From Sycon ciliatum (Eukaryota > Porifera > Calcarea > Leucosolenida > Sycettidae): DNA of 64,000 nucleotides. Each line of letters begins with the position of its first letter. Positions within the stretch are counted from its first letter, which is position 1. The stretch lies in assembly GCF_964019385.1 (NCBI RefSeq), contig NC_088645.1, positions 17,347,680 through 17,411,679 on the forward strand, given 5' to 3'. Positions 7,756-58,409 of this stretch are shown one piece after another. The position numbers and the translations under genes are program-made. Below the pieces are notes generated by a model that was not told the origin of the DNA, searched no databases, and saw only the letters and a program-made list of their open reading frames with translations.

Positions 7756-7765
7756 AATTATAATA

Positions 7766-9852: not shown

Positions 9853-10921
9853 TAGGGTTCACGGCTTGCCACTAAAAGCACCCGTCACGTGCGCCTCCAT
9901 TTTGGATTATGGACGCGCGCTACAGCCGGAGTACAGGCCGCGACAGCGCCTATCGAAGTAAAAATATCGACTCGAAGTCTAGCCGGATATATATATAGCC
10001 GGAGAGCGTTGAATTTTTCCTTGGCTTCAGTTCAGTGGCTTCACAGTTCACTTCACTCGGGCCATGCATTTTTCTGACTGACCTGGACTTGATGATGGCG
10101 GCGGTGGCGGTCTTGGCGAAAGATCCAGTTCCATCTGAGACACTCTGTCGTCTTTTCTTATCTGCTGAGGTTCTGGCAAAGCGCAGCTGCATCGAACCTG
10201 ACTAGATGTAGCTGCACGCATCCTTTGTTTGCCCTGCAAATCTCGATCTGTTGCTCTTCTTGCTGTTTGGCCGCTGATGCCATTGAAGAAAATATTCTTC
10301 CTGTAAAGAGGCCGAAACTGAGCTAGGGCACGTCAAGATATGTAGGGTATACAAAGAAAAAGAAATGTCATGGTCGTTTCAGCAGCTCACGACAGCCAAC
10401 ACGCTCCATCGTCGGGATTGGAAGTATCCAGCACGGCTGTTCCGAGCGCTGCTGCTCTTGTTATTCTTCTTCTTCAGAAATTCTCCACACCTTGTCGGCC
10501 AAAGTACGCGCGCGCGTGCACGGAAAATAGATGCGCTGAGCCGTTTCTTGTTCGATTTTGACAAATAATGGCTTGTTGTTTTGCTCTCGACCTTGGCTAT
10601 CCTTCTACCGTTCAGTATTTTACGGAAACGCAACGGCTCCCCCTGTTTTTTTACCCGAACTTTGGCCAAAGTTACTGGAAAACCCGGAACTCGTTTGAAA
10701 AAATACGAACGGTGGAAGTCTTGGAACGTCTTTCGTGCGTGTGGATTCAAAAATTCAGGCAGTTTGAGCCAACCGTAATGAATCCCGTAGAGTTGAAAGT
10801 GAGTGATATTGATGGGAAAATGCGATTTGAGCACTGACCGATTGTGTGGGACAGTATATGCACGCTCCTGTCACGTGCATGATGTGGCTGGCGACGCTAG
10901 CATGCCAATCCGTGAACCCTA
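9853..10921. mobile_element. DNA transposon with TAGGGTTCACGG terminal repeats
   Basis: A 1069-bp element has perfect 12-bp terminal inverted repeats TAGGGTTCACGG / CCGTGAACCCTA. It is flanked by the 5-bp duplication AACTT (9848-9852 and 10922-10926). Removing it rejoins the interrupted family C unit. A 151-codon minus-strand ORF (10379-10834) has no recognisable domain. No transposase is visible, so it is probably non-autonomous. Superfamily not assigned. Confidence 0.75.
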
Positions 10922-11506
10922 AACTTGGAAGGTTCAAGGTTATGGAAAAGACCAAAGAGGGGAAGGCAAGCGCAACGAAAACGAGTAACTAGTCCATCAC
11001 AATGTCATGCATGAGGAGTACTGTAGGAGTTTGGCTTTCGGCTTGTACAATTCGTTTTCGCAAAGCTTCCCTTTCTTTACTTATCTTTGATATTTATGAC
11101 CCACCCAAGTTGGGTGGTGTGCTGCTTTGCTGCTTCGAATTGTAGTTAGACCGCTGTGTCAAATATCGTACTGGTCTCGTCATCTTCCAGTAACAATCGA
11201 CATTCTTTGTTCCGTTGGGACTGTAGCTTTTGCTCGTTTTCGTTGCGCTTGCCTTCCCCTCTTTGGTCTTTTCCATAACCTTGAACCTTCCAAGTTGGAA
11301 GGCTGTCGGTTAGCGCTACGGAGATGTGTTGAAGCTAGGTGTCAGGACGTCGAATGTTTCAGTACTCTGTCAGTTTTGTGCCTAGTTATTGCACTTTCTG
11401 ACTGTATATAGTATCATGTTACAGTGATGGAGAGTTACTCTCAACTCGTATCCATATGTCCTTTTCTCTTCCACAATAATAATAATAATAATAATTACGA
11501 AGTCTG

Positions 11507-11666
11507 AAGAAAATGTTGAACGGCCTCTGCTGGGATGACGACTACACCATGGCTCAGTGGTTAGAGCATCGCTGGCTACAAGCGAGGGTCCCTGGTTCGA
11601 GTCCTGGTGGTGACAGTCAATTTTTTCTTCAGACTTTTCCCGTTTGTCTCTTTCCCTCAAACCAGC

Positions 11667-11667
<1 letters not shown>
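11507..11667 (+). mobile_element. tRNA-like SINE, single copy
   Basis: Plus-strand copy of the SINE: box A at 11550-11567 and box B at 11593-11603, inverted AAGTCTGAAGAAAA segments on both sides, ending in CTCAAACCAG followed directly by (TAA)n at 11668-11702. The last 22 bp recur at 16112-16133, beyond the Penelope-like element. This suggests the latter inserted at the SINE tail. Confidence 0.75.
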
Positions 11668-11701
<34 letters not shown>

Positions 11702-11702
11702 T
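11668..11702. repeat. (TAA)n microsatellite
   Basis: SINE tail and left border of the Penelope-like element. Confidence 0.95.
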
Positions 11703-11747
11703 CCACGCAAACACACATCCAGTCATAATAAGGCACTTGTCATAAGT

Positions 11748-11781
11748 ATCCGAACGTTTTCGGTCCCTTCTCATCAAGGAT
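11748..11781 (-). ncRNA. Degenerate hammerhead-like motif, Penelope-like element 1 (inverted copy)
   Basis: ATCC / GGAT stem I, TTGATGA in place of CTGATGA, GAAA, and AACGTT as a self-complementary stem III. Stem II has essentially one base pair. The C3 to T change should impair cleavage. Confidence 0.35.
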
Positions 11782-12206
11782 TATACAGGGAATGGCTCAA
11801 GCTGGAAAGACTTAAACTTATATAGCATAAAGATAATTAGATAACAACACTCGTGACAAGGTGGAAAATTATCAAGTTTAGCACGACACAAAACTCGAAG
11901 GAAAATAATAATAGTGACAACAACATAGTGAGCAAATTAAGTTACATTGTTACCACCTCGACGAGGAGTAACACCAAACAATTGTAGCGACAACACATTT
12001 TCTTTCTGTACGCAAAGTTCAGGATCTAACTTACGGATATACAAAGCTTCTAACACAGCCAAATGTAACGCACATCTACCACGTGACAATATTGAGAAAA
12101 CATTATCACTGTACAACTCACGACAATTGGTACGGGCTGACAGATGTTGCTTGATTGACGAAGTGCGATTCTTAGCTCCATTGGGTGTTGAGCCATTCCC
12201 TGTATA

Positions 12207-12240
12207 ATCCTTGATGAGAAGGGACCGAAAACGTTCGGAT
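12207..12240 (+). ncRNA. Degenerate hammerhead-like motif, Penelope-like element 1 (5' copy)
   Basis: Same motif as at 15940-15973. The first core base is T rather than C, and stem II is weak. Confidence 0.35.
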
Positions 12241-12715
12241 ACTTATGACAAGTGCCTTATTATGACTGGATGTGTGTTTGCGTGGATATTTGCGACCCAT
12301 AACTTACCTTCGTTTTAAAGTATTATCCGCCTCTGACCTCTTTAAAAAAATCGTTACACCGTGGAGGCAAACTTGGACACTGGGCCTCCTTTGCTCAGTG
12401 TCTTGTAGCAGCGTGTTCACAAACCGAGAGTTAAATTCCAGTTCCATCTACTAGTGCTTTAGGCTCTTTTTTATTATTATATTTTTATATTTATTTTATA
12501 GTACATGCACCTTTACCTGTTCGTAGTACAATCTTTGCTAGTTGATACAGTCATGTATGTACGTTCCGTCCTGTTAGTTGTCTTGACGGATACATGACTC
12601 GCAACACTGCTCACTAGTATTAACAATAGTAAGTAGTAGGGCCTTGAGCTCTACAGCGTGCATGAAGCTCCCATGCTGCGCCCTTGTCCAGCTGCAATAC
12701 ACCTAGGCTACACTG

Positions 12716-15700
12716 GTGGACGTACAGACCCCTTGCCGGTCTTTGTCCACGCTGATGCGCGTAACAGCGACTGTTGCCCTCTTATACTTTTTATCGTCAC
12801 GACACTGTTTCAATTACTTCAAACAACGCCTCCCAATCACCCATATTGATGTATTGAATGACGTTCTTGCCCTCCGTGGTCGCCTCAATACAGCTATATT
12901 CAGTGTCAGGTTACTCCGTGACTGCCTACACTACTCTGTTGCACCTAAGTATTTGCAAAAACGAGTGCAGAAACTAAAGCTTTATGATTCTATCTCTATC
13001 GAGAAAGTACTTTTGCAGGATGATCTTAACAAGGCAAAGAGCCAACTTCACAATGCACGATCGAGGTTTGTGTCTTCGTATCAGAAAGTACGAAGACTTC
13101 TCAATACCTACGATTTTGTTAGATTTTCATGGCTAATATCGCAATGTGACTGTAAACAACGATCTAGGCAGCATGCAAAACACGTTTGGATTGTGTCTGC
13201 CTTGAGAAAGGACCGATTCGGCACATGTAGCGACAATTATGATACTATTATTAATCTTGCCGATATCCCTTTGACTCAACTACAAAAGGACGTGCTGTGT
13301 GGCGGTTTAGATTTTGGCATTCCTCCCAAACTCCACCGATTGGAGATGTTGGCGGAATTTGAGCTGCTCCAGCAGCAATTGTCCAAGGTACCAGCAAAAT
13401 CTGACGAAACAGCAGTGGCTTGCCGGGCGTCTCTGGCTGCCGAGGCACACAGGTTTGCGCAGTCCTCTCCTGACACCCGGTCTTTTTCACTCACACGAGA
13501 GCACCTCAAAGTCATGAGGGAGCTCCGAACAAATCCGGATATCATTATCTCCCGCCCGGACAAGGGTAGGGCAACGGTTATTATGTCAAGGGAGGACTAC
13601 CAAACCAAGATGATGGTCATACTAGAGGATAAGACAAAATTCTGCAGACTCGGACCGTGCGATGTATATGACCATACAGAAAACATCGACACTAAACTTA
13701 GCAAATACCTATTGTCTCTTTCAAAAACACATCAAATGTCTGATTATGAGTACGACCATCTGGCGCCGACGGGATCAACACGACCACGAATGTACGGGCT
13801 CCCAAAAATTCACAAGAAGAACATTCCCTTACGAGCAATACTCAGCATGTCTGGGTCACCGCAATTTAAAACATCCAAGTGGCTATGTTCCATGCTACAA
13901 CCGGTACTCAACCTCTACAATAGCCACTGCGTCAAAGATACTTTCGAGTTTGTAGAAAAGCTAAAGGACGCAAGCTTTGAATCGAGCGGATTCATGTGCT
14001 CGTATGACGTGGTGAGCTTATTTACTAACGTGCCACTACGGGAGACCATTGACATCTGCGCAACAACACTGTACCACAATAAGTCCATTACTCCGCCGTC
14101 TTTGAACGAAACGGAGTTTGTGAAACTCATGTTAATGGTTACGTCGGGCGTTGAGTTTTCATTTGGCAACGTTATGTATAAACAAATAGATGGCGTTGCC
14201 ATGGGCTCGCCGCTTGGTCCTGTATTGGCTAATATCTTTGTAGGGTTCTGTGAAGCGTCCATTAGTCCATCATTGTGGCCCTCTATGTACTGTCGTTTTG
14301 TAGACGATGTGTACTGTCATGATGAGGATGAGGATGTCTGTGGGACTTTTCTACTAACTCTGAATAGTCTCCACCCGGCGTTGAGATTCACGTCGGAAGC
14401 GGAACAAAACGGCAGCTTATCCTTCTTGGATGTACAAATATCACGGAATATTAACACTAAGAGTTTGGACACCACTATCTATAGGAAGCCAACGTTCACC
14501 GGCCTCTACATTCCGTGGGGGAGCTATACTCCTACGAAATCGAAGAGACATCTTGTGAAGGCGCTAGTTTATCGTGCACATAGAATATGTTCCCCTCATC
14601 TATTGCAGGACGAATTAGACAGACTGACATCAATATTTACGAACAACGGCTATCCAAAGGAATTTCTGGCCAAGCTAATCAACGAAAAACCGGTGACAGA
14701 CAAGCCTATCCAATTTGGACCTGACCGTTGCCCAGTGGTGCTCCGTTTACCCTGGGTTGGCACCGGTTCTGCGCGCGTGGAGAAGGATGTTCGTGGTATC
14801 GTATGTCCATCATATCCGTGCGTCAAGCTGTACGTCATATTTGGGACAGTGCGTGCGTTCAGTGTGAAGAAGGATGTTCTACCTACCCTTAGTAAAAGTA
14901 ACCTTATCTATTTCTTTCAATGCCGACAATGTGAAGATCGGTATGTAGGTAGAACCCTTCAGCACCTGGGCGCACGCATTCGTCAACATGTGCCGTTAAG
15001 TTGTGTTCCGCTTGATGCGCGCGATTGTCGTCCTCGCCGTGGTCGTCCTCCAAAATGTGCTGTCCAGTCCATCGGTGGATCTTCCTCTTCCCGTAAAGAT
15101 GTGACTGCATGCCCGTCCTCCTCTGCGTGTGTAGGACACGGGCCAGCTGAGAACAGCATAAAAGATGGTGAAAGACCCACACGTAAACCACCGAAACTGA
15201 CAAAGGATCTGTCGGCGTCGGAAAGGGTGACGAGAAGCCAAGTGAAAATACGGACTGATGAGGACGAACGTACAACGACAACGGAAGTGACAACAACAGT
15301 CAATATTCGAAAACGTGGTAGACCGCGAAAACTAACCTCAATATCGGACACCGGACAAGTTGGAGTAAGAAGCTCAATAGAAATCCGCAATGGAGGAGAC
15401 GTAACGGAAAGGACACCGGGTATCGCGCACCCAACGGTTAGTGTCAAGAAACGTGGAAGGCCGCGGAAACGCGAAGAGACAGATAGTGGTGATGCCACGA
15501 AGAGGCGAGATGACGGGACATTGGAGGAGACAACACCCAATGGAGCTAAGAATCGCACTTCGTCAATCAAGCAACATCTGTCAGCCCGTACCAATTGTCG
15601 TGAGTTGTACAGTGATAATGTTTTCTCAATATTGTCACGTGGTAGATGTGCATTACATTTGGCTGTGTTAGAAGCTTTGTATATCCGTAAGTTAGATCCT

Positions 15701-15784
15701 GAACTTTGCGTACAGAAAGAAAATGTGTTGTCGCTACAATTGTTTGGTGTTACTCCTCGTCGAGGTGGTAACAATGTAACTTAA
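12716..15784 (+). CDS. Penelope-like RT with GIY-YIG endonuclease and AT-hooks
   Basis: An uninterrupted 1022-codon ORF for target-primed reverse transcription. RT landmarks in order are SRPDKGRATVIM (about residue 280), YGLPKIHKKNIPLRAIL (about 360), SYDVVSLFTNVPL (about 425), GVAMGSPLGPVLANIF (about 495) and the catalytic FVDDVY (about 528). A GIY-YIG nuclease module follows near 730-760, with IYFFQC...RYVGRTLQHLGARIRQH. Between it and the conserved C-terminal tail lie three AT-hook-like cores: RRGRPPK (about 774), KRGRPRK (about 866) and KRGRPRK (about 911). The C-terminal tail (about 960-1020) is homologous to the tail encoded by the 20805-22266 element. No disabling change is seen. The exact start codon is uncertain and could be further in. 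Confidence 0.9.
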   Translation: MDVQTPCRSLSTLMRVTATVALLYFLSSRHCFNYFKQRLPITHIDVLNDVLALRGRLNTAIFSVRLLRDCLHYSVAPKYLQKRVQKLKLYDSISIEKVLLQDDLNKAKSQLHNARSRFVSSYQKVRRLLNTYDFVRFSWLISQCDCKQRSRQHAKHVWIVSALRKDRFGTCSDNYDTIINLADIPLTQLQKDVLCGGLDFGIPPKLHRLEMLAEFELLQQQLSKVPAKSDETAVACRASLAAEAHRFAQSSPDTRSFSLTREHLKVMRELRTNPDIIISRPDKGRATVIMSREDYQTKMMVILEDKTKFCRLGPCDVYDHTENIDTKLSKYLLSLSKTHQMSDYEYDHLAPTGSTRPRMYGLPKIHKKNIPLRAILSMSGSPQFKTSKWLCSMLQPVLNLYNSHCVKDTFEFVEKLKDASFESSGFMCSYDVVSLFTNVPLRETIDICATTLYHNKSITPPSLNETEFVKLMLMVTSGVEFSFGNVMYKQIDGVAMGSPLGPVLANIFVGFCEASISPSLWPSMYCRFVDDVYCHDEDEDVCGTFLLTLNSLHPALRFTSEAEQNGSLSFLDVQISRNINTKSLDTTIYRKPTFTGLYIPWGSYTPTKSKRHLVKALVYRAHRICSPHLLQDELDRLTSIFTNNGYPKEFLAKLINEKPVTDKPIQFGPDRCPVVLRLPWVGTGSARVEKDVRGIVCPSYPCVKLYVIFGTVRAFSVKKDVLPTLSKSNLIYFFQCRQCEDRYVGRTLQHLGARIRQHVPLSCVPLDARDCRPRRGRPPKCAVQSIGGSSSSRKDVTACPSSSACVGHGPAENSIKDGERPTRKPPKLTKDLSASERVTRSQVKIRTDEDERTTTTEVTTTVNIRKRGRPRKLTSISDTGQVGVRSSIEIRNGGDVTERTPGIAHPTVSVKKRGRPRKREETDSGDATKRRDDGTLEETTPNGAKNRTSSIKQHLSARTNCRELYSDNVFSILSRGRCALHLAVLEALYIRKLDPELCVQKENVLSLQLFGVTPRRGGNNVT

Positions 15785-15939
15785 TTTGCTCACTATGTTG
15801 TTGTCACTATTATTATTTTCCTTCGAGTTTTGTGTCGTGCTAAACTTGATAATTTTCCACCTTGTCACGAGTGTTGTTATCTAATTATCTTTACGCTATA
15901 TAAGTTTTAGTCTTTCCAGCTTGAGCCATTCCCTGTATA

Positions 15940-15973
15940 ATCCTTGATGAGAAGGGACCGAAAACGTTCGGAT
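15940..15973 (+). ncRNA. Degenerate hammerhead-like motif, Penelope-like element 1 (3' copy)
   Basis: ATCC / GGAT stem I around TTGATGA and GAAA with stem III AACGTT. Lies 156 bp downstream of the stop codon in the terminal repeat. Confidence 0.35.
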
Positions 15974-16090
15974 ACTTATGACAAGTGCCTTATTATGACT
16001 GGATGTGTGTTTGCGTGGATATTTGCGACCCATAACTTACCTTCGTTTTAAAGTATTATCCGCCTCCGACCTCTTTTTAAAAAAAAAAAA

Positions 16091-16143: not shown

Positions 16144-16652
16144 TAGCATCCCCCCACCTCACAACAGAGCAACCGAGTTTTGCATTAAGCTGGGAGTGCC
16201 GATTCGAGCAACTGGTATAATGGCTCGCAGCTGAGCCAGCAAATGACTCCGCTTGGAGCAGGCGAATGACTCCGCATGGAGCCGGCAAATGACTCCGCAT
16301 GGAGCCGGCAAATGACTCCGCATGGAGCCGGCAAATGACTCCGCATGGAGCAGGCGAATGACTCCGCATGGAGCCGGCAAATGACTCCGCATGGAGCCGG
16401 CGAATGACTCCGCATGGAGCCGGCGAATGACTCCGCATGGAGCCGGCAATTGACTCCGCATGGAGCCAGCGAATGACTCCGCATGGAGCCGCCGAATTAC
16501 TCCGCATGGAGCTGCCAATTACTCCGCATGGAGCCGTCGAATGACTCCGCATGGAGCCGCCAATGCCTCCGCATGGAGCCGCCAATGACTCTGAATAGAG
16601 CCGCCAAATGCTAGATATATAGAGATGCATAACCAGTTGAGAGCATATATTC
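16144..16652. repeat. Split direct repeat A (outer) containing 23-bp minisatellite
   Basis: Contains about 16 tandem copies of a 23-bp unit (GACTCCGCATGGAGCCGGC plus AAAT or GAAT) between about 16236 and 16600. The minisatellite opens several long frames (up to 167 codons) that are repeat artefacts. Confidence 0.9.
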
Positions 16653-16907: not shown

Positions 16908-17416
16908 TAGCATCCCCCCACCTCACAACAGAGCAACCGAGTTTTGCATTAAGCTGGGAGTGCCGATTCGAGCAACTGGTATAATGGCTCGCAGCTGAGC
17001 CAGCAAATGACTCCGCTTGGAGCAGGCGAATGACTCCGCATGGAGCCGGCAAATGACTCCGCATGGAGCCGGCAAATGACTCCGCATGGAGCCGGCAAAT
17101 GACTCCGCATGGAGCAGGCGAATGACTCCGCATGGAGCCGGCAAATGACTCCGCATGGAGCCGGCGAATGACTCCGCATGGAGCCGGCGAATGACTCCGC
17201 ATGGAGCCGGCAATTGACTCCGCATGGAGCCAGCGAATGACTCCGCATGGAGCCGCCGAATTACTCCGCATGGAGCTGCCAATTACTCCGCATGGAGCCG
17301 TCGAATGACTCCGCATGGAGCCGCCAATGCCTCCGCATGGAGCCGCCAATGACTCTGAATAGAGCCGCCAAATGCTAGATATATAGAGATGCATAACCAG
17401 TTGAGAGCATATATTC
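16908..17416. repeat. Split direct repeat A (inner) containing 23-bp minisatellite
   Basis: 509 bp, same minisatellite register and same length as 16144-16652. The equal repeat number suggests recent common origin by reverse transcription. Confidence 0.9.
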
Positions 17417-19590: not shown

Positions 19591-19699
19591 CTGGCTTTGG
19601 AGATTTATTTTATTTTCCATTGCTATCAGGTTCGGCTTAATTCCCTCTGTGCTGCGCTGATGAGTCCACAAAGGACGAAACAGTTGTCCGCAGATTGAG
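19591..19699 (+). mobile_element. 109-bp insertion carrying a hammerhead, 10-bp target duplication
   Basis: The direct repeat TATTGATAAC (19581-19590 and 19700-19709) brackets this insertion. It holds a hammerhead near its 3' end and looks like a 5'-truncated end of a Penelope-like or retrozyme element. A decayed relative lies at 36185-36275. Confidence 0.7.
19652..19693 (+). ncRNA. Hammerhead ribozyme in 109-bp insertion
   Basis: Stem I CTGCG / CGCAG, core CTGATGA, stem II GTCC / GGAC with loop ACAAA, core GAA, short stem III ACAGTTGT, cleavage triplet GTC. Predicted cut is between 19688 and 19689. All core bases are intact. Confidence 0.85.
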
Positions 19700-20783: not shown

Positions 20784-20886
20784 AATAATAATAATAATAA
20801 TAATCAACGCAATAAATAGAGTAAGCTGCGCACTCAGTACAAACACCATTAGCAAAACTTGTTTTCATGTAAATAATTAAGCTTGT

Positions 20887-20920
20887 TCCTAAACGTTTTC
20901 GTCGCCATCTCATCAGAGGA
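20887..20920 (-). ncRNA. Minimal hammerhead motif, Penelope-like element 2 (left arm)
   Basis: TCCT / AGGA stem I, intact CTGATGA and GAAA, self-complementary AACGTT stem III. Stem II (GATGGCGAC) pairs only at its closing G-C. Such minimal type I motifs are known in Penelope-like elements and may act as dimers. Confidence 0.5.
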
Positions 20921-22121
20921 TTACTGGCAAATCAAAACTAGCTCTAAATTCAATATATATACGCACAATGCAAGTAGTAATTTAGACCCTAACTAGCGCG
21001 AGAAAATGAGAGCTGAAAAAACATTACATCAATCAACGATATCAGGTGACAACAGATGCGATAAATTCACTACTAGAAAGTAACCATGCACCACAAACGA
21101 GAACTACTGATCTAAATTCACAAACAATTTCAACGTAAACAAATTCTTTTTCTGCCTACACAAAATCGGCTTGGTAGTAAAAATGTAGATAGACTCCAAT
21201 ACACGCAGATACCTTTGACTACGTGAACGAGACCAAACAGAAAAGCAATCATCAGTATAACTAGAACGACAATCACTATTCTGAACAAGATGGTTTGCAA
21301 CAGAAGATTCATACACCCTAACACCACTACTAGAACCAGTACATACTTTGGAATTACGTGACAATGAAACCGACTTGACATTCCTTGCCGCTACTGCCAC
21401 TCCAGACGAAGCCGATGTAGATGTCCGTACCAAAGACACGTCCGTTACTGGCACTGCCTGCTGCGATGATGCTCCCTTTGACGTTTCAATGGCCGTTGGT
21501 GTTGATGAAGAAGCCTCATCTCCCTCCTCTTCTTCATCAACACCAACGGCCATTGAAACGTCAAAGGGAGCATCATCGCAGCACGCAGTGCCAGTAACGG
21601 ACGTGTCTTTGGTACGGACATCTACATCGGCTTCGTCTGGAGTGGCAGTAGCGGCAAGGAATGTCAAGTCGGTTTCATTGTCACGTAATTCCAAAGTATG
21701 TACTGGTTCTAGTAGTGGTGTTAGGGTGTATGAATCTTCTGTTGCAAACCATCTTGTTCAGAATAGTGATTGTCGTTCTAGTTATACTGATGATTGCTTT
21801 TCTGTTTGGTCTCGTTCACGTAGTCAAAGGTATCTGCGTGTATTGGAGTCTATCTACATTTTTACTACCAAGCCGATTTTGTGTAGGCAGAAAAAGAATT
21901 TGTTTACGTTGAAATTGTTTGTGAATTTAGATCAGTAGTTCTCGTTTGTGGTGCATGGTTACTTTCTAGTAGTGAATTTATCGCATCTGTTGTCACCTGA
22001 TATCGTTGATTGATGTAATGTTTTTTCAGCTCTCATTTTCTCGCGCTAGTTAGGGTCTAAATTACTACTTGCATTGTGCGTATATATATTGAGTTTAGAG
22101 CTAGTTTTGATTTGCCAGTAA

Positions 22122-22155
22122 TCCTCTGATGAGATGGCGACGAAAACGTTTAGGA
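22122..22155 (+). ncRNA. Minimal hammerhead motif, Penelope-like element 2 (right arm)
   Basis: Identical to the left-arm copy. Predicted cut is between 22151 and 22152. Confidence 0.5.
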
Positions 22156-22266
22156 ACAAGCTTAATTATTTACATGAAAACAAGTTTTGCTAATGGTGTT
22201 TGTACTGAGTGCGCAGCTTACTCTATTTATTGCGTTGATTACATTTTTATCTCCACGTAAGCTTTT

Positions 22267-25900: not shown

Positions 25901-27512
25901 GCCTTGGCACAGTCGTTCCTTGGACTGCGGATGAGCTCCGCTCGCTGGACAGGACAGTGAGGAAGGCTCTGACTGCTAGCAGGGCCCACCACCCACGTGC
26001 CTCAATCCGTCGCCTATATCTACCGCGGAGTGAGGGAGGTCGTGGCCTAGTATGCATCGTAGATCTCCATGACCGTACTTGCATCCGGCTCGCTCAGTAC
26101 CTGAAGGATCGGGAAGATGTCCCTGCCCTGGCCGCTGTTCTCCAGTACCATGAATCACGTCCCTCTAGAAAATCAATACCAAAGCTGGCAAATACTGTCC
26201 TGCAGCGCCTTCGCCTAACGAGCCTGGACACCGCTAACAAAGAGACTGTTAAACAGGCCCTCAATGACAACCGCCGCCGTGAACTTCGAGCGATGCCTCT
26301 TCATGGTCGCTATTGGGCGCGTGTTGATGGCATCCTGGACATGCAGCTCTCGTTTTCCTGTTTCAGATCCCAGACAATGCATCCTGAAACGGAAGGCTTT
26401 CTCATTGCTTGCCAGGATCAGGTGATTGCCACGAGAAACAATATGCGCCATATCCACAAGAGGCATGATGTCGTGGACCTCTGTCGTGTATGTGGTGCAC
26501 CCGGAGAAAATATGGACCACATCATCGCCTGCTGTCCAGCCCTGGCACGGACTGCATACATTGCCCGGCATAACTTTGTGGTCCAGGCCCTGCATCGTGC
26601 GCTGTGTAAGCAGCATGGATTACCCAGCAGTAAGCAGCTGGTGCAGGTCACAAGTTCTGCCAGTTGCAAGCTGATATGGGAGATTTCCATTCCCACAGAT
26701 CGAGTAATAAAAGCGAACAGACCAGACCTGGTGCTGGTTCTGGATGATCGGGCACTGCTCTTGGACGTCAGTGTCCCATTGGACCACAGGGTGAATGAGA
26801 AGGTGCAGGAGAAGATCAGCAAATACCTGCCCTTGGCAGCAGAGCTGAGGAGGATCTGGAACAAAAAGATAACTATTGTTCCAGTTATCATTGGTGCTCT
26901 GGGTGGTGTGTCAGGAACGAGCCGCAGCCACATCTTAAGCCTTGGGCTCCATGCGTCCGTGATCCAGCGGCTGCAGCAATGTGCTATTCTGGGCACCCTG
27001 AGAATTGTGCGGTCGGTGACTGGTCATGGATGGGAGAGTGGCATGGTCGGAACGGTCGGTTGACCTTATGTTAGCCTGCCCGTAATGTCTCGATGTGTCT
27101 CAGTCTGTGTGTTTTATGATTGTGGTGCATCATGTGCTGTGTGACGAGCCGAGAGGCGTGAATTTCTGCCATATGTCCCCAGTCATGTATTGTCTTTCTC
27201 TGCATATGCCGTTTTATCTCGTCTGAGTTTGTCTTGCTTGGAGTGTCCCATGTGCAGCATGCTTGGTGTTTACTACTTGAGTAGTTCTGTTATACATGAC
27301 TGTGATTTTATGTGAGTATCGAAGTTGGTATACTTGAATTTTTCTCTCATGAAGTTTATCAAAATTTGGTTCAGGATTTTCTTTTATCTTCATTGATTGG
27401 TGCTTCACCCTTGGGTCATATGGATCCCGGTGCTGTGCTTCATGCCTCCTTTCAAGCTTTCTTTTTCTGCTTTGGGAGTGAATAAAGTCGTCATAATAAT
27501 AATAATAATAAA
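22919..27512 (+). mobile_element. Intact R4/Dong-like RLE non-LTR retrotransposon
   Basis: A leader of about 170 bp, one 1324-codon ORF, and a 3' untranslated region ending GAATAAAGTCGTCA plus (TAA)n at about 27493-27512. The insert begins in a TAATAATT tract at the tail of its truncated sister copy. The target preference matches Dong, a family known to insert in TAA repeats. Confidence 0.92.
23089..27063 (+). CDS. Non-LTR retrotransposon polyprotein: Myb-like domain, RT, CCHC, restriction-like endonuclease
   Basis: An intact ORF for target-primed reverse transcription in the nucleus. Residues about 8-85 (RRKWSGSDNRIALECHF to SVEQEEIARQL) resemble the Myb/HTH-like DNA-binding N-terminus of RLE elements; that call is pattern-based. 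The RT spans about 600-900, with NWRPITCLPSMYKLF, AWLDFRKAFDSLSQEW, RRGIFQGDSLSPLLF and the catalytic YMDD near 808. A CCHC motif (CRVCG...HIIACC) lies near 1132. The endonuclease core (RPDLVLVLD...LLLDVSVPLDHRV) lies near 1210-1235. The start may be the second Met (MPPRRKW) at 23101. No stop or frameshift is seen, so this is a candidate active copy. It may supply the machinery for the (TAA)-tailed SINEs. Confidence 0.93.
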   Translation: MNWCMPPRRKWSGSDNRIALECHFLAVWPQKAGHRKRQLDLWIQRRPDDIISEQNLAGQISLIIKKYLTSVEQEEIARQLVQRGELPVEFMTRFGCVVQLPATTSQGPESVSASSTGAVSLDSAAGLPDDPGACFTDTDSEPPASLARDHVEYSACTGSVDSGPSVLVNDGHDTCAGVPPSLLRVFAAGPLPSCTEYSSTAGDDASCIESVYAHSVGSPVACVRPQAVYGLAGPQPPVEGDFAPSGSTPTVDGPAVGVPETEQSHCTRETPCSPCSNSNPDKLGGILTNLSESGILGPGGLSMDLEWSIRHLCINRKITTPGDVARPLSGVLVGVQSLQLTGRPRLTVPRKVPSRALSSNVALVNGGMRLFLSGLPLPLSLEFANQLTYAAAVLVLVVSGVAPCRLSGGDHGRETAPGWLLRIQRKIENVRKDVSRLTSFIQAGNPRLFTRYPVKSSDEAVALLESKKMELLALSARIRRYKDNIKRKQQNQVFRENERQFYRSLGTQEADCSDQTRPGMGALHDFWSGIWSEPFAVSRHGWIEREALAYQDVQPQEDAVITPELFQLAVGRMPHWRAAGPDNIRPFWLKKFSALHPALLRIFQQLLDSEVVPPPWFSLGATVLLPKKGDLSKPQNWRPITCLPSMYKLFTSVVSELMWSHITANSLLAPEQVGCARGRGGCTDQLLINNMIIEDAKCHQRSLSMAWLDFRKAFDSLSQEWIWEIATIYKFDPRIIRTLQTLSEQWSTQLCLSSGVSEPISIRRGIFQGDSLSPLLFCIGLNPISNELARSGIGYRCGPTRDSLLSHLWYMDDVKLFAASSTGLDSLINIVECVGGAVGMQLSPTKCSKIVCPAAKPTQDAEPSSTLLTESIIHPLQDGAAYLYLGLREFLGIEAGEVKQSAIAEFRRRLRLITDASLCAPNLIRAINTYVLPVVSYGLGTVVPWTADELRSLDRTVRKALTASRAHHPRASIRRLYLPRSEGGRGLVCIVDLHDRTCIRLAQYLKDREDVPALAAVLQYHESRPSRKSIPKLANTVLQRLRLTSLDTANKETVKQALNDNRRRELRAMPLHGRYWARVDGILDMQLSFSCFRSQTMHPETEGFLIACQDQVIATRNNMRHIHKRHDVVDLCRVCGAPGENMDHIIACCPALARTAYIARHNFVVQALHRALCKQHGLPSSKQLVQVTSSASCKLIWEISIPTDRVIKANRPDLVLVLDDRALLLDVSVPLDHRVNEKVQEKISKYLPLAAELRRIWNKKITIVPVIIGALGGVSGTSRSHILSLGLHASVIQRLQQCAILGTLRIVRSVTGHGWESGMVGTVG

Positions 27513-27653
27513 AGGGTTTGCTCCCCACACCGGAGCTCGCGCTATTCCGCCGACTTTACTTGACACTTGACTGACTCACGACTGCCATCCAGAGCACACG
27601 AGAAGTCCATCGAACCTTCGACTCGGCAAACCTGCAAGAAAGCACCACTCCCT

Positions 27654-27699
27654 GCTCAATACACAGTGTTTCGGGGAATTCACCCCTCATCAGTTGAGC
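27654..27699 (-). ncRNA. Hammerhead ribozyme, family B (inverted copy)
   Basis: Same motif as at 27975-28020, read on the minus strand. All stems are intact. Confidence 0.9.
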
Positions 27700-27974
27700 T
27701 TGAGTAGGCTGAGGAAGATTGTGCCCGAGGAGCACCACTTATATAGTGCTCTCCAGGCACGACCATCACCAGGGATACAAACTTACAGAGACGCTCCGTT
27801 TTCAGCGCGACAAACACCTCGTGAGCACCAGATAGCAGCGTGAGTCAGTGTCGCTGCTGTTTGTCGCGCTGAAAACGGAGCGTCTCTGTGAGTTTGTATC
27901 CCTGGTGATGGTCGTGCCTGGAGAGCACTATATAAGTGGTGCTCCTCGGGCACAATCTTCCTCAGCCTACTCAA

Positions 27975-28020
27975 GCTCAACTGATGAGGGGTGAATTCCC
28001 CGAAACACTGTGTATTGAGC
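27975..28020 (+). ncRNA. Hammerhead ribozyme, family B, unit 1
   Basis: Stem I GCTCAA / TTGAGC (6 bp), core CTGATGA, stem II GGGG / CCCC with loop TGAATT, core GAA, short stem III ACA / TGT with loop CTG, cleavage triplet GTA. Predicted cut is between 28014 and 28015. Type I topology. Confidence 0.9.
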
Positions 28021-28453
28021 AGGGAGTGGTGCTTTCTTGCAGGTTTGCCGAGTCGAAGGTTCGATGGACTTCTCGTGTGCTCTGGATGGCAGTCGTGAGT
28101 CAGTCAAGTGTCAAGTAAAGTCGGCGGAATAGCGCGAGCTCCGGTGTGGGGAGCAAACCCTTTTCTTACAAATCATCGCCGAGGTCGCAACCACTACTTC
28201 GTACTGTTGTGCCCAGCGCGGGCTTGCGACTAGTTGGTTTGGAGGTGACAGCGTTGCGAATGACCGAGGGTCCTCGACGTCTGTCTCACCGTCCAGCAGC
28301 GACACTGACTCACGCTGCTATCTGGTGCTCACGAGGTGTTTGTCGCGCTGAAAACGGAGCGTCTCTGTAAGTTTGTATCCCTGGTGATGGTCGTGCCTGG
28401 AGAGCACTATATAAGTGGTGCTCCTCGGGCACAATCTTCCTCAGCCTACTCAA

Positions 28454-28499
28454 GCTCAACTGATGAGGGGTGAATTCCCCGAAACACTGTGTATTGAGC
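28454..28499 (+). ncRNA. Hammerhead ribozyme, family B, unit 2
   Basis: Exact repeat of the motif 479 bp downstream. Cleavage at both sites would release a 479-nt monomer. Confidence 0.9.
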
Positions 28500-28932
28500 A
28501 GGGAGTGGTGCTTTCTTGCAGGTTTGCCGAGTCGAAGGTTCGATGGACTTCTCGTGTGCTCTGGATGGCAGTCGTGAGTCAGTCAAGTGTCAAGTAAAGT
28601 CGGCGGAATAGCGCGAGCTCCGGTGTGGGGAGCAAACCCTTTTCTTACAAATCATCGCCGAGGTCGCAACCACTACTTCGTACTGTTGTGCCCAGCGCGG
28701 GCTTGCGACTAGTTGGTTTGGAGGTGACAGCGTTGTGAATGACCGAGGGTCCTCGACGTCTGTCTCACCGTCCAGCAGCGACACTGACTCACGCTGCTAT
28801 CTGGTACTCACGAGGTGTTTGTCGCGCTGAAAACGGAGTGTCTCTGTAAGTTTGTATCCCTGGTGATGGTCGTGCCTGGAGAGCACTATATAAGTGGTGC
28901 TCCTCGGGCACAATCTTCCTCAGCCTACTCAA

Positions 28933-28978
28933 GCTCAACTGATGAGGGGTGAATTCCCCGAAACACTGTGTATTGAGC
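28933..28978 (+). ncRNA. Hammerhead ribozyme, family B, unit 3
   Basis: Third exact plus-strand copy, again at a 479-bp interval. Confidence 0.9.
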
Positions 28979-29160
28979 AGGGAGTGGTGCTTTCTTGCAG
29001 GTTTGCCGAGTCGAAGGTTCGATGGACTTCTCGTGTGCTCTGGATGGCAGTCGTGAGTCAGTCAAGTGTCAAGTAAAGTCGGCGGAATAGCGCGAGCTCC
29101 GGTGTGGGGAGCAAACCCTTTTCTTACAAATCATCGCCGAGGTCGCAACCACTACTTCGT

Positions 29161-30170: not shown

Positions 30171-30650
30171 GCTCCTCATGTTACGGGTAGAGCTAGTCCG
30201 TATAAACCTCCAATACCGCATTTGCTTTGACATCCATGAATGTGCAGTATGACGGTCCTCACAACCTGATTTTTCTCTTGCCATTTGAGTATGTCCGGCA
30301 TTCATCTCTTCCTTTATTTCTATTCCTGTACTGGTAGTCCATTTTTGTGATTACTCTTTTTGTATTCGAATATGTCCTGTCCTCCTCCATCTTTTTGTAT
30401 CCGAATATGTCCTGGCCTCCTCCATCGTTCTGCTTATTTCTGTCCGTCTCTCAGTTTCTGCGTCGGCTTTCAATATTTTTGCTTTGGTTTTTACAATCCT
30501 TTTTGCTTCGGTCTTCATTGCGTTGGCCATTTATCTATTTTTTTTTCTCTCATTACCCGTGGTCTCTTTTGGCCCGGTGATGGGGTTCTTACCTCATGTC
30601 ATGACAACGTGAGTGAAATAAAGCCAACTCCATAATAATAATAATAATGT
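29181..30650 (+). mobile_element. 5'-truncated R4/Dong-like element, copy 3 (third family)
   Basis: Begins inside the region just before the RT C-terminal part and ends in GAAATAAAGCCAACTCCA plus (TAA)n. The protein is related to, but clearly diverged from, the other two R4-like copies. 30171-30640 is T-rich 3' untranslated sequence with no gene. Confidence 0.85.
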
Positions 30651-31399
30651 TCACTAGTTTGAGGGAAAGAGACAAACGGGAAAAGTCTGAAGAAAAAATT
30701 GACTGTCACCACCAGGACTCGAACTAGGGACCTTCGCTTGTAGCTAGCAATGCTCTAACCACTGAGCTATGGTGTAGTCGTCATCCCAGCAGAGACTGTT
30801 CAACATTTTCTTCAGACTTCGTAGCTCACACTTCCTGTGAATCCACACAGGCGGGTGGGACGCAGCCCTCACTGTACCCACACACTTCACGTGCACTCTA
30901 GCACGCGGGGAGCCCCAAGTCATAAAATCTTCACTAGTTTGATGGAAAGAGACAAACGGTAAAAGTCTGAAGAAAATTGACTGTCACCACCAGGACTCGA
31001 ACCAGGGACCTTCGCTTGTAGCTAGCGATGCTCTAACCACTGAGCTATGGTGTAGTCGTCATCCCAGCAGAGCCCGTTCAACATTTTCTTCAGACTTCGT
31101 AGCTCACACTTCCTGTGAATCCACACAGGCGGGTGGGACGCAGCCCTCACTGTACCCACACACTTCACGTGCACTCTAGCACGCGGGGAGCCCCAAGTCA
31201 TAAAATCTTCACTAGTTTGAGGGAAAGAGACAATCGCGAAAAGTCTGAAGAAAAAGTTGACTGTCACCACCAGGACTCGAACCAGGGACCTTCGCTTGTA
31301 GCTAGCGATGCTCTTACCACTGAGCTATGGTGTAGTCGTCATCCTAGCAGAGACTGTTCAACATTTTCTTCAGACTTTGTAGCTCACACTTCCTGTGAT
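30649..31399 (-). mobile_element. Tandem trimer of the tRNA-like SINE
   Basis: Unit starts recur at 30651, 30931 and 31209 (periods 280 and 278 bp). Each has minus-strand box B (GGTTCGAGTCC or a one-base variant) and box A (AGCTCAGTGGTTAGAGC). The last unit stops at 31399 in (TAA)n. The bounding inverted AAGTCTGAAGAAAA segments are present. This is a second locus with the same 280-bp tandem period as 8560-9014. Confidence 0.75.
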
Positions 31400-53779: not shown

Positions 53780-54119
53780 TTAATAGCACAACTTGGTAGG
53801 CATTGACAGATTATGCTAGCAGATTTTTTTGCATAATTCCTACCTAGGAGAATGAAATTGAAGACACCACTGCAGCTGTACTTATGGTTGATAAATATGG
53901 TGGTAAAGACACACCTGGCAATATGGCGGTAAACACACGCCTGCCCACACACGCTCTCTAGGCTGCAAAGTTCTGGCACAGAGCTCTCCTTCTCACCACC
54001 ACCACCATCAGTTCGCGCCTGGCGCCTGGTCGATGCATGGCTGGCGGTATCCGGCATAGCAGGCTGGTACATCAAGTAGCGCATGGCACATAGATGATGA
54101 CACAGCAACGACATAGCTC

Positions 54120-54163
54120 GATTGCGACGTACGTTTCGTCCCCGCTGGACTCATCAGGCAATC
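54120..54163 (-). ncRNA. Hammerhead ribozyme, family A, inverted arm copy 1
   Basis: Minus-strand motif identical in core to 55680-55723. Farthest from the inversion point. Confidence 0.92.
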
Positions 54164-54471
54164 TTCTTCTTGGATGTCTTCATACGGACCTTGACTCGGG
54201 AGAATGAAATTGAAGACACCACTGCAGCTGTACTTATGGTTGATAAATATGGTGGTAAAGACACACCTGGCAATATGGCGGTAAACACACGCCTGCCCAC
54301 ACACGCTCTCTAGGCTGCAAAGTTCTGGCACAGAGCTCTCCTTCTCACCACCACCACCATCAGTTCGCGCCTAGCACCTGGTCGATGCATGGCTGGCGGT
54401 ATCCGGCATAGCAGGCTGGTACATCAAGTAGCGCATGGCACATAGATGATGACACAGCAACGACATAGCTC

Positions 54472-54515
54472 GATTGCGACGTACGTTTCGTCCCCGCTGG
54501 ACTCATCAGGCAATC
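54472..54515 (-). ncRNA. Hammerhead ribozyme, family A, inverted arm copy 2
   Basis: Same motif, 352 bp from the previous copy. All stems intact. Confidence 0.92.
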
Positions 54516-54823
54516 TTCTTCTTGGATGTCTTCATACGGAGCTTGACTCGGGAGAATGAAATTGAAGACACTACTGCAGCTGTACTTATGGTTGATAAAT
54601 ATGGTGGTAAAGACACACCTGGCAATATGGCGGTAAACACACGCCTGCCCACACACGCTCTCTAGGCTGCAAAGTTCTGGCACAGAGCTCTCCTTCTCAC
54701 CACCACCACCATCAGTTCGCGCCTGGCGCCTGGTCGATGCATGGCTGGCGGTATCCGGCATAGCAGGCTGGTACATCAAGTAGCGCATGGCACATAGATG
54801 ATGACACAGCAACGACATAGCTC

Positions 54824-54867
54824 GATTGCGACGTACGTTTCGTCCCCGCTGGACTCATCAGGCAATC
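54824..54867 (-). ncRNA. Hammerhead ribozyme, family A, inverted arm copy 3
   Basis: Same motif, 352 bp from the previous copy. All stems intact. Confidence 0.92.
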
Positions 54868-55175
54868 TTCTTCTTGGATGTCTTCATACGGACCTTGACT
54901 CGGGAGAATGAAATTGAAGACACCACTGCAGCTGTACTTATGGTTGATAAATATGGTGGTAAAGACACACCTGGCAATATGGCGGTAAACACACGCCTGC
55001 CCACACACGCTCTCTAGGCTGCAAAGTTCTGGCACAGAGCTCTCCTTCTCACCACCACCACCATCAGTTCGCGCCTGGCGCCTGGTCGATGCATGGCTGG
55101 CGGTATCCGGCATAGCAGGCTGGTACATCAAGTAGCGCATGGCACATGGATGATGACACAGCAACGACATAGCTC

Positions 55176-55219
55176 GATTGCGACGTACGTTTCGTCCCCG
55201 CTGGACTCATCAGGCAATC
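55176..55219 (-). ncRNA. Hammerhead ribozyme, family A, inverted arm copy 4
   Basis: Same motif, the copy nearest the inversion on the minus-strand side. All stems intact. Confidence 0.92.
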
Positions 55220-55679
55220 TTCTTCTTGGATGTCTTCATACGGAGCTTGACTCGGGAGAATGAAATTGAAGACACCACTGCAGCTGTACTTATGGTTGAT
55301 AAATATGGTGGTAAAGACACACCTGGCAATATGGCGGTAAACACACGCCTGCCCACACACGCTCTCTAGGCTGCAAAGTTCTGGCACAGAGCTCTCCTTC
55401 TCACCACCACCACCATCAGTTCACGCCTGGCGCCTGGTCGATACCGCCAGCCATGCATCGACCAGGCGCCAGGCGCGAACTGATGGTGGTGGTGGTGAGA
55501 TGGAGAGCTCTGTGCCAGAACTTTGCAGCCTAGAGAGCGTGTGTGGGCAGGCGTGTGTTTACCGCCATATTGCCAGGTGTGTCTTTACCACCATATTTAT
55601 CAACCATAAGTACAGCTGCAGTGGTGTCTTCAATTTCATTCTCCCGAGTCAAGCTCCGTATGAAGACATCCAAGAAGAA

Positions 55680-55723
55680 GATTGCCTGATGAGTCCAGCG
55701 GGGACGAAACGTACGTCGCAATC
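55680..55723 (+). ncRNA. Hammerhead ribozyme, family A, direct arm copy 1
   Basis: Stem I GATTGC / GCAATC (6 bp), core CTGATGA, stem II GTCC / GGAC with loop AGCGG, core GAA, self-complementary stem III ACGTACGT, cleavage triplet GTC. Predicted cut is between 55717 and 55718. All invariant core positions are intact. Type I topology. Confidence 0.92.
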
Positions 55724-56031
55724 AAGCTATGTCGTTGCTGTGTCATCATCTATGTGCCATGCGCTACTTGATGTACCAGCCTGCTATGCCGGATACCGCC
55801 AGCCATGCATCGACCAGGCGCCAGGCGCGAACTGATGGTGGTGGTGGTGAGAAGGAGAGCTCTGTGCCAGAACTTTGCAGCCTAGAGAGCGTGTGTGGGC
55901 AGGCGTGTGTTTACCGCCATATTGCCAGGTGTGTCTTTACCACCATATTTATCAACCATAAGTACAGCTGCAGTGGTGTCTTCAATTTCATTCTCCCGAG
56001 TCAAGCTCCGTATGAAGACATCCAAGAAGAA

Positions 56032-56075
56032 GATTGCCTGATGAGTCCAGCGGGGACGAAACGTACGTCGCAATC
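56032..56075 (+). ncRNA. Hammerhead ribozyme, family A, direct arm copy 2
   Basis: Exact motif, 352 bp after copy 1. Cleavage at both sites would free a 352-nt monomer. Confidence 0.92.
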
Positions 56076-56382
56076 GAGCTATGTCGTTGCTGTGTCATCA
56101 TCTATGTGCAATGCGCTACTTGATGTACCAGCCTGCTATGCCGGATACCGCCACCATGCATCGACCAGGCGCCAGGTGCGAACTGATGGTGGTGGTGGTG
56201 AGAAGGAGAGCTCTGTGCCAGAACTTTGCAGCCTAGAGAGCGTGTGTGGGCAGGCGTGTGTTTACCGCCATATTGCCAGGTGTGTCTTTACCACCATATT
56301 TATCAACCATAAGTACAGCTGCAGTGGTGTCTTCAATTTCATTCTCCCGAGTCAAGCTCCGTATGAAGACATCCAAGAAGAA

Positions 56383-56426
56383 GATAGCCTGATGAGTCCA
56401 GCGGGGACGAAACGTACGTCGCAATC
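56383..56426 (+). ncRNA. Hammerhead ribozyme, family A, direct arm copy 3 (stem I variant)
   Basis: 351 bp after copy 2. The 5' strand of stem I is GATAGC instead of GATTGC, leaving one mismatch in a 6-bp stem. Core intact. Confidence 0.88.
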
Positions 56427-56734
56427 GAGCTATGTCGTTGCTGTGTCATCATCTATGTGCCATGCGCTACTTGATGTACCAGCCTGCTATGCCGGATACC
56501 GCCAGCCATGCATCGACCAGGCGCCAGGCGCGAACTGATGGTGGGGGTGGTGAGAAGGAGAGCTCTGTGACAGAACTTTGCAGCCTAGAGAGCGTGTGTG
56601 GGCAGGCGTGTGTTTACCGCCATATTGCCAGGTGTGTCTTTACCACCATATTTATCAACCATAAGTACAGCTGCAGTGGTGTCTTCAATTTCATTCTCCC
56701 GAGTCAAGCTCCGTATGAAGACATCCAAGAAGAA

Positions 56735-56778
56735 GATTGCCTGATGAGTCCAGCGGGGACGAAACGTACGTCGCAATC
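56735..56778 (+). ncRNA. Hammerhead ribozyme, family A, direct arm copy 4
   Basis: Exact motif. All stems intact. Confidence 0.92.
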
Positions 56779-57086
56779 GAGCTATGTCGTTGCTGTGTCA
56801 TCATCTATGTGCCATGCGCTACTTGATGTACCAGCCTGCTATGCCGGATACCGCCAGCCATGCATCGACCAGGCGCCAGGCGCGAACTGATGGTGGTGGT
56901 GGTGAGAAGGAGAGCTCTGTGCCAGAACTTTGCAGCCTAGAGAGCATGTGTGGGCAGGCGTGTGTTTACCGCCATATTGCCAGGTGTGTCTTTACCACCA
57001 TATTTATCAACCATAAGTACAGCTGCAGTGGTGTCTTCAATTTCATTCTCCCGAGTCAAGCTCCGTATGAAGACATCCAAGAAGAA

Positions 57087-57130
57087 GATTGCCTGATGAG
57101 TCCAGCGGGGACGAAACGTACGTCGCAATC
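57087..57130 (+). ncRNA. Hammerhead ribozyme, family A, direct arm copy 5
   Basis: Exact motif. All stems intact. Confidence 0.92.
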
Positions 57131-57438
57131 GAGCTATGTCGTTGCTGTGTCATCATCTATGTGCCATGCGCTACTTGATGTACCAGCCTGCTATGCCGGA
57201 TACCGCCAGCCATGCATCGACCAGGCGCCAGGCGCGAACTGATGGTGGTGGTGGTGAGAAGGAGAGCTCTGTGCCAGAACTTTGCAGCCTAGAGAGCGTG
57301 TGTGGGCAGGCGTGTGTTTACCGCCATATTGCCAGGTGTGTCTTTACCACCATATTTATCAACCATAAGTACAGCTGCAGTGGTGTCTTCAATTTCATTC
57401 TCCCGAGTCAAGCTCCGTATGAAGACATCCAAGAAGAA

Positions 57439-57482
57439 GATTGCCTGATGAGTGCAGCGGGGACGAAACGTACGTCGCAATC
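57439..57482 (+). ncRNA. Hammerhead ribozyme, family A, direct arm copy 6 (stem II variant)
   Basis: Stem II reads GTGC instead of GTCC on its 5' strand, which breaks one of four base pairs. Core intact; cleavage may be weakened. Confidence 0.85.
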
Positions 57483-57790
57483 GAGCTATGTCGTTGCTGT
57501 GTCATCATCTATGTGCCATGCGCTACTTGATGTACCAGCCTGCTATGCCGGATACCGCCAGCCATGCATCGACCAGGCGCCAGGCGCGAACTGATGGTGG
57601 GGGTGGTGAGAAGGAGAGCTCTGTGACAGAACTTTGCAGCCTAGAGAGCGTGTGTGGGCAGGCGTGTGTTTACCGGCATATTGCCAGGTGTGTCTTTACC
57701 ACCATATTTATCAACCATAAGTACAGCTGCAGTGGTGTCTTCAATTTCATTCTCCCGAGTCAAGCTCCGTATGAAGACATCCAAGAAGAA

Positions 57791-57834
57791 GATTGCCTGA
57801 TGAGTCCAGCGGGGACGAAACGTACGTCGCAATC
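57791..57834 (+). ncRNA. Hammerhead ribozyme, family A, direct arm copy 7
   Basis: Exact motif. The last complete unit before the array ends at 58071. Confidence 0.92.
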
Positions 57835-58409
57835 GAGCTATGTCGTTGCTGTGTCATCATCTATGTGCCATGTGCTCCTTGATGTACCAGCCTGCTATGC
57901 CGGATACCGCCAGCCATGCATCGACCAGGCGCCAGGCGCGAACTGATGGTGGTGGTGGTGGTGAGAAGGAGAGCTCTGTGCCAGAACTTTGCAGCCTAGA
58001 GAGCGTGTGTGGGCAGGCGTGTGTTTACCGCCATATTGCCAGGTGTGTCTTCACCACCATATTTATCAACCAATTCCTACCTAAATCGAATAATCGCATA
58101 ATTCAAGGCAAATTTCATATGAATCTCAATTGGAATAATCCGTCTGTTCCCATCAAATTCCATGCAGTTGTACATGTTCTACAAATACAAGTACAAGTAG
58201 ATGCACTTTGAAGTCGTAGGTTTACGACTCTCTTGAGAACATGTCCAGTCCACTACAATCAGTGACGGTCGTAGCTAGGTCGGACGGTGTGTTGACACCG
58301 TTGAACTTTTGTTACTACAGTACAACGCCCTCTACAAAAAATTCCCCTGTTATTTTGCACAGAACCATTATACCCTAGCAGCATATGTGAGCATAATGCG
58401 GCATAAGGC

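Follow-up and report, generated by a model that had tools for sequence, protein, structure and literature searches.

Eleven hammerheads lie in an inverted array within one duplication

The stretch analysed here, which we call the window, is 64,000 nt of Sycon ciliatum DNA (GCF_964019385.1, NC_088645.1 positions 17,347,680–17,411,679, forward strand). At 53847–58071 it holds an array of 352-bp units with eleven type I hammerhead ribozymes, which the original prediction took for a single tandem run and for an animal retrozyme. Tandem Repeats Finder and BLAST bore out the unit length and the extent of the array. The run itself is not single: Tandem Repeats Finder breaks it into two at 55440 because its arms are inverted: in BLAST, the sequence at 53847–55442 is the unit of 55440–58071 in reverse complement. 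The left arm (53847–55442, minus strand) has about 4.5 units and four hammerheads, the right arm (55440–58071, plus strand) about 7.5 units and seven hammerheads, and the two meet head to head in a 3-bp overlap, GAT, common to both arms (55440–55442). In unit coordinates, which start at the cleavage site, the left arm has its outer end at position 279 and the right arm at position 240, in the classes termed start sites P2 and P1 below. Since the arms are opposed, a read-through transcript of the array would carry one arm as sense and the other as antisense. We refer to the 352-bp unit as family A, to a 479-bp unit as family B and to a 592-bp unit as the third family.

The array is enclosed as a whole by one direct target-site duplication of 11–12 bp, AATTCCTACCTA, at 53835–53846 (where the first A could also belong to the end of the element) and 58072–58083; a matching 11-bp flank arose in 1 of 200,000 random draws, near pairs being skipped. 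The nine full-length units have a G+C content of 52–53%, the window 48.8%. Stop-to-stop open frames within the array span 1.4 units (164 amino acids), and the unit is too short to encode a reverse transcriptase or a GIY-YIG endonuclease: the array is not a Penelope-like element, but its insertions look like those of one.

The Rfam type I model (RF00163), the search suggested with the original prediction, detected all eleven hammerheads, nine of them at 35.4 bits, above the gathering cut-off of 34 bits. They lie at 54120–54163, 54472–54515, 54824–54867 and 55176–55219 on the minus strand (35.4 bits each), and at 55680–55723, 56032–56075, 56383–56426, 56735–56778, 57087–57130, 57439–57482 and 57791–57834 on the plus strand. 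The hammerhead is thus complete in nine units but not, as had been claimed, in every one, with a stem I mutation in the copy at 56383 (26.8 bits) and a stem II mutation in that at 57439 (31.9 bits). Our own motif scan recovered nine of the eleven and gave no hit in 40 equal-size first-order Markov windows. The proposed cut at 55717/55718, in the hammerhead at 55680–55723, falls where the motif places it, as a prediction.

The family A ribozyme has a stem I of six contiguous base pairs (GATTGC/GCAATC), CTGATGA and GAAA cores, and a stem II of GTCC/GGAC with an AGCG loop, followed by ACGTACGTC. The stem III palindrome that had been described, ACGTACGT, is present, but within one RNA it gives only 2 bp and a GTAC tetraloop, whereas between two copies it gives 8 bp. 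The hammerhead fold of a single motif is predicted at −7.7 kcal/mol, against −10.5 kcal/mol for a minimum fold that is not a hammerhead; two copies are predicted to co-fold as a double hammerhead with a shared 8-bp stem III at −30.0 kcal/mol, against 2 × −10.5. These models suggest that family A hammerheads probably act as dimers through the palindromic stem III. In the covered text of PMC7229834, axolotl hammerheads with a weak stem III cut better as dimers, and salamander and newt hammerhead satellites, by description, resemble family A in unit length (about 330–350 bp), in a weak stem III with a tetraloop (palindromic in one family) and in being active mainly as dimers; head-to-head integration of these satellites is undescribed there.

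An isolated type I hammerhead at 19651–19694 (30.6 bits, below the cut-off) has a 2-bp stem III like that of the main array; no repeat partner of at least 60 bp was found for it within the window.

The inverted architecture recurs across the genome

Searching the window's own assembly (538 Mb) gave at least 216 matches to the 352-bp unit, and all 39 loci grouped from the matches listed were fetched, making 40 with the window; arms were counted only if above 45 bp. Adjacent arms occur at 29 of the 40 loci and form 30 head-to-head pairs and one tail-to-tail pair, the latter a small extra piece in locus L148. We classed outer ends as P1 (unit positions 230–255) or P2 (262–292). One end is P1 and the other P2 in 25/30 pairs, near 239 and 277, and no pair has both ends in one class. 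The five others have one unclassifiable end (L159, L162, L163, L164 and L166), and L162–L164, which have a common right arm, look like copies of one locus. By our arithmetic, 25 unlike ends out of 25, at a chance of one half each, would arise about 3 times in 100 million, with the caveat that L152 and L153, identical in arm lengths and phases, may be one event. Among the 21 pairs with a duplication of at least 10 bp, the exact outer ends fall at 235–242 and 267–283. A duplication of at least 12 bp encloses 21/30 pairs, compared with 2/870 mismatched pairs of flanks. The loci share this architecture with differing flanks and mostly differing duplications, and their longest arms reach 4.9 kb (L157).

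Family B is represented in the window by a head-to-head array within (TAA)n. Its left arm (27510–27859, minus strand, outer end about 150) carries one hammerhead (27654–27699, minus strand) and its right arm (27858–29159, plus strand, outer end about 187) three, at 27975–28020, 28454–28499 and 28933–28978, with a GUA cut site. These hammerheads were found by the motif scan and were not reported by Rfam at E values up to 1; a TATA-like sequence lies upstream of the ribozyme. The genome holds 222 matches to the unit, and from about 39 other loci among the matches listed we sampled 20, mostly the best-scoring, for a total of 21 with the window. They gave 19 head-to-head pairs and one tail-to-tail pair, the latter in the compound locus L187, which also holds the single exception to P1/P2 outer ends (18/19 pairs). 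Duplications of at least 10 bp flank 17/19 pairs, and two loci, L179 and L182, have a common target site.

Penelope-like elements in the window and genome

A Penelope-like element lies at 11698–16083. Its inverted left arm (11698–12190, minus strand), comprising the 3′ end of the open reading frame and the pseudo-long terminal repeat (pLTR), is a 493-bp inverted copy of the right end of its right arm (12188–16083, plus strand; an A run leaves its right end uncertain by about 15 nt). The element is head to head with one arm longer, its ends lying at reference positions 493 and about 553. An open frame of 1,025 amino acids (12707–15784, plus strand) covers a reverse transcriptase, a weak GIY-YIG match and AT hooks. 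The six best PDB matches to its predicted fold are all telomerase (E 7e-10 to 3e-8), with template modelling (TM) scores, by query, of only 0.27–0.29 and a mean predicted local distance difference test (pLDDT) of 81 for the model; this fold points to a telomerase-like reverse transcriptase. An alignment of 40 sequences contains a conserved C..C...RYVGRT region, which may belong to a C-terminal endonuclease of the GIY-YIG type. The protein has 481 homologues, and the sole named relative among the 120 listed is from an octocoral. An AT-hook match lies inside the putative endonuclease region, and such elements adjoin (TAA)n; the AT hook might bear on target choice.

A second Penelope-like element is present as a 3′ end at 20801–22241, 42% identical over 69 C-terminal residues and forming a 713-bp head-to-head palindrome; its right end lies about 25 nt from (TAA)n, a stretch that is possibly a longer arm, a single copy having been considered. 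Two loci of the first element's family, L195 and L196, are likewise head to head with one arm longer and lie beside (TAA)n; one arm ends at reference position 528–529, its partner at 554. Both were picked for opposed arms among the best 40 of 43 matches, and so document that the pattern exists rather than its frequency. Three further reverse transcriptase frames in the window are presumably LINE-like (long interspersed nuclear element).

Both arms appear to copy one RNA from two start sites

Variants that differ from the reference unit and are fixed in all covering copies occur in both arms rather than in one arm by 35 to 7 in family A and 45 to 1 in family B, a contrast somewhat biased in that the one-arm count required two copies and the both-arm count one per arm. 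Among the head-to-head loci analysed, seven such both-arm variants in 5/29 family A loci and eight in 3/17 family B loci are private to their locus. The inner ends of paired arms are unrelated in unit position (Rayleigh p 0.10 for A and 0.62 for B), lying within 30 nt of each other in 3/30 and 2/19 pairs, where 5.1 and 2.4 are expected. Junction overlaps of at least 2 bp occur in 11/30 A and 13/19 B pairs, compared with about 15–16% by chance, although alignment slop may inflate these counts. Where it can be told, then, the two arms of an insertion appear to have copied the same RNA sequence, begun at two fixed sites and stopped independently, as expected if each cut strand supplied a primer and the template were cyclic or multimeric.

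We consider it probable that the 352-bp array is a non-autonomous retrozyme of animal type that is moved by Penelope-type machinery, its RNA being copied from both cut target strands. The mechanistic reading changes with features absent from the original prediction: the inverted arms, the flanking duplication, two further hammerhead families and the Penelope-like element. Units would be transcribed as multimers, and the hammerheads, probably as dimers, would cut these to 352-nt RNAs to be ligated into circles, as others have demonstrated for other animal retrozymes. The enzyme presumably cuts its target, often AT-rich or (TAA)n, with the 12–14-nt stagger that the duplications record. The 3′ ends of the cut strands would then prime reverse transcription, one strand starting at P1 and its partner at P2, sites that the arm ends place about 38 nt apart. 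Each strand would copy the RNA and often run round a circular template more than once, as the multi-unit arms suggest. Finally, the two antisense complementary DNAs (cDNAs) would meet and be joined, often at short microhomology, giving the observed head-to-head array in one duplication.

A more specific scheme is plausible, though we lean slightly against it: a dimeric Penelope-type reverse transcriptase could sit on one circular RNA, its active sites at the starts about 38 nt apart and each extending a different target strand, both by rolling-circle copying, before the cDNAs are joined, so that integration would be obligately two-handed.

The same both-strand mechanism could instead use a linear multimer, a read-through transcript of a genomic array, with no circle involved. 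Arms of several kilobases and the repeated unfixed variants of the window array (below) would suit such a template, a homogeneous array could yield the same copies, and in vitro Penelope RNA served as template mainly in unprocessed form (PMC11167929, in the part covered). A single short circle is nevertheless the simplest source of locus-private variants fixed in both arms, and a perfect hammerhead is retained in 119/141 A and 64/76 B copies with a downstream anchor; on balance we think the linear template unlikely.

Snap-back self-priming, in which one cDNA folds back and copies itself into a palindrome, was proposed for the Penelope elements of bdelloid rotifers, where the authors favoured self-priming on antisense RNA and, in the text covered, left the mechanism open (PMC3846280). 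Some palindromes in the window are hairpin-like, namely those labelled E, C′ and array A, with spacers of 15, 22 and 14 nt respectively. Snap-back requires close inner ends, however, whereas the inner ends are unrelated in unit position across loci, making a self-copying hairpin unlikely, and the outer ends lie at two different sites in 25/30 A and 18/19 B pairs. For families A and B the inner-end phases disfavour it, and we regard it as very improbable.

It is more improbable still that head-to-tail retrozyme tandems were inserted by LINE-type target priming and inverted later. LINEs were named alongside Penelope-like elements as possible retrozyme engines (PMC7229834, in the part covered), and the three other reverse transcriptase frames lie within the window. 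Inverted arrays, however, are bounded by an intact direct duplication, head-to-head order holds in 30/31 A and 19/20 B adjacent pairs, and the ends fall at two fixed internal sites. In LINE-1 twin priming, reverse transcription is primed from both strands of the target and the 5′ part of the product is inverted, but this is an occasional by-product at variable positions; here head-to-head insertion is the usual product and starts at two fixed sites. That the arrays are ordinary satellites or result from faulty assembly of an inverted repeat is scarcely credible, because, although tandem arrays and palindromes are often misassembled, the same architecture stands at dispersed loci with differing flanks and mostly differing duplications.

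Several observations weigh against Penelope-type copying of a circular RNA from both strands. Variants repeat without being fixed within the arms of the window array, 292G in two units of the left arm and 128G with 153A in two units, three apart, of the right arm; all three are transversions, and one monomeric circle does not predict them. We considered dimeric or trimeric circles as their source and rejected this: a dimer fits the left arm, but a trimer fails at the innermost unit of the right arm. Single arms stand at 11/40 A and 4/21 B loci; among the former, L150 lacks a second arm and has a clean 12-bp duplication, L169 combines a 13-bp match with a spacer of 9 nt, and the short second arm of L137 ends at neither P1 nor P2. 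At least one long B array outside the sample (C13, about 13.56–13.57 Mb) has only minus-strand matches among those listed. No 12-bp duplication was found at 9/30 A pairs, and 9/17 B duplications lie within (TAA)n, where they are weak as proof. The hammerhead is not conserved in excess of its unit in family A (rank 179/352 by copy and 244 by locus), and its excess in family B is weak (rank 28/479). In the Penelope-like frame, the RVT_1 match (19.7 bits, Pfam cut-off 29.6) and the GIY-YIG match, in its expected place (14.4 bits, cut-off 22.6), both fall below threshold, and that family was sampled at three loci, of which two were selected. The single-arm loci, the A pairs without a clear duplication and the unfixed window variants lie outside what the mechanism explains. 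Purifying selection on the ribozyme, also considered, is by these conservation ranks not seen in A and weak in B.

In six of the 11 single-arm family A loci (L132, L142, L150, L156, L169 and L170), the inner end falls at unit positions 149–190, a cluster that possibly marks the transcript 5′ end.

Comparison with known systems

Comparisons in this section refer to the covered text of the papers named. Animal non-long-terminal-repeat (non-LTR) retrozymes have units of 170–400 nt, a G+C content below 50% and highly self-paired RNA (PMC7229834). The window array resembles them in its tandem units of a few hundred base pairs with a type I hammerhead each, in dispersed copies flanked by duplications of more than 4 bp, in the lack of a reverse transcriptase gene in the unit and in the presence of Penelope-like elements in the same genome. 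The attribution to animal retrozymes thus stands on unit size, hammerhead type, dispersal and flanking duplications, but not on low G+C or high self-pairing. Family A differs in a G+C of 52–53%, a descriptive rather than mechanistic trait, and its 352-nt circle is not unusually self-paired (64% paired, z +1.5 as predicted, from 60 shuffles); the family B circle is highly self-paired (72%, z −4.2, likewise predicted from 60 shuffles). The 479- and 592-bp families exceed the stated size range, and neither head-to-head arms in one duplication nor a P1/P2 end rule is described in the portion of PMC7229834 covered. More widely, head-to-head retrozyme insertions are undescribed in the literature searched, with most subscription papers and all supplements beyond reach.

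For Cervera and de la Pena (2020, PMC7229834), Penelope-like elements are a strong candidate engine for retrozymes in view of their co-occurrence, tandem copies and shared ribozymes. Those of bdelloid rotifers are described as head to head, with 8–10-bp duplications, a 31-bp tail that one inverted end may carry, and AT-rich targets (PMC3846280). The purified protein of an anole Penelope-like element cuts both strands of its target, extends them and begins reverse transcription at two neighbouring internal sites that match the tail (PMC11167929). GIY-YIG Penelope-like elements and the window arrays have in common head-to-head inverted terminal copies, short duplications, hammerhead motifs, a tail of 30–40 bp on one inverted end and AT-rich or (AAT)n targets (PMC3846280, PMC11167929); the 352-bp array itself has head-to-head copies, one end longer by 30–40 nt and a short duplication. 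Unlike these elements, the retrozyme unit lacks reverse transcriptase and endonuclease, is far shorter and is often tandem on both arms. Its duplications are 12–14 bp, compared with 8–10 bp in the rotifer examples (PMC3846280), and whereas the anole protein in vitro has no start-site difference between strands (PMC11167929), each paired insertion here uses one site of each kind.

These papers leave open both the engine of animal retrozymes and the way in which Penelope-like elements complete insertion (PMC7229834, PMC11167929, PMC3846280). With a unit this short and cyclic, the starting point of each strand can be read from every insertion, and the arrays answer part of both questions from sequence alone: two fixed starts, one per strand, independent stops and, where this can be told, the same RNA. 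The head-to-head and P1/P2 signature adds structural evidence that would tie retrozymes to Penelope-type machinery by mechanism, beyond co-occurrence; for families A and B it weighs against self-priming as proposed in the literature, and it supplies biochemistry with exact start sites, 235–242 and 267–283. If the two-handed dimer scheme were true, retrozyme arrays would be natural recorders of a Penelope-like integration mechanism that is still unsettled.

Third family and other repeats

The third family, with 236 matches to its 592-bp unit in the genome, is also head to head in the window. Its left arm (9044–10986, minus strand), with 869 nt of element and a hammerhead at 9585–9635, is interrupted at 9852–10925, where about 1,074 bp with inverted ends (TTTAGGGTTCACGG) are inserted; in its right arm (10987–11475, plus strand, 489 nt) the outer end falls short of that of the left arm by 33 nt. 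The genome-wide match table contains head-to-head pairs, with the end of the longer arm at query positions 212–216. A further head-to-head palindrome of this family, without a hammerhead, lies at 7757–8534 and adjoins (TAA)n.

The exact family A hammerhead pattern had no match in viral contigs. A looser pattern (at least 120 loci) and the B pattern (three stretches) together matched at least 123 loci, which we set aside as relatives: in the 26 loci with at least two scan hits all hits lie on one strand, and the stems III listed have at least 4 pairs, unlike the 2–3 of the window families.

Units of 278–281 bp with tRNA-like sequence occur as arrays or single copies at 30632–31398, 8542–9011 and 11495–11702. 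They adjoin (TAA)n, run only head to tail within each window array and are possibly short interspersed nuclear elements (SINEs) that use the same machinery. Two 23-bp minisatellites, at 16233–16610 and 16997–17374, are equal in length, consensus and score, and their starts lie 764 bp apart.

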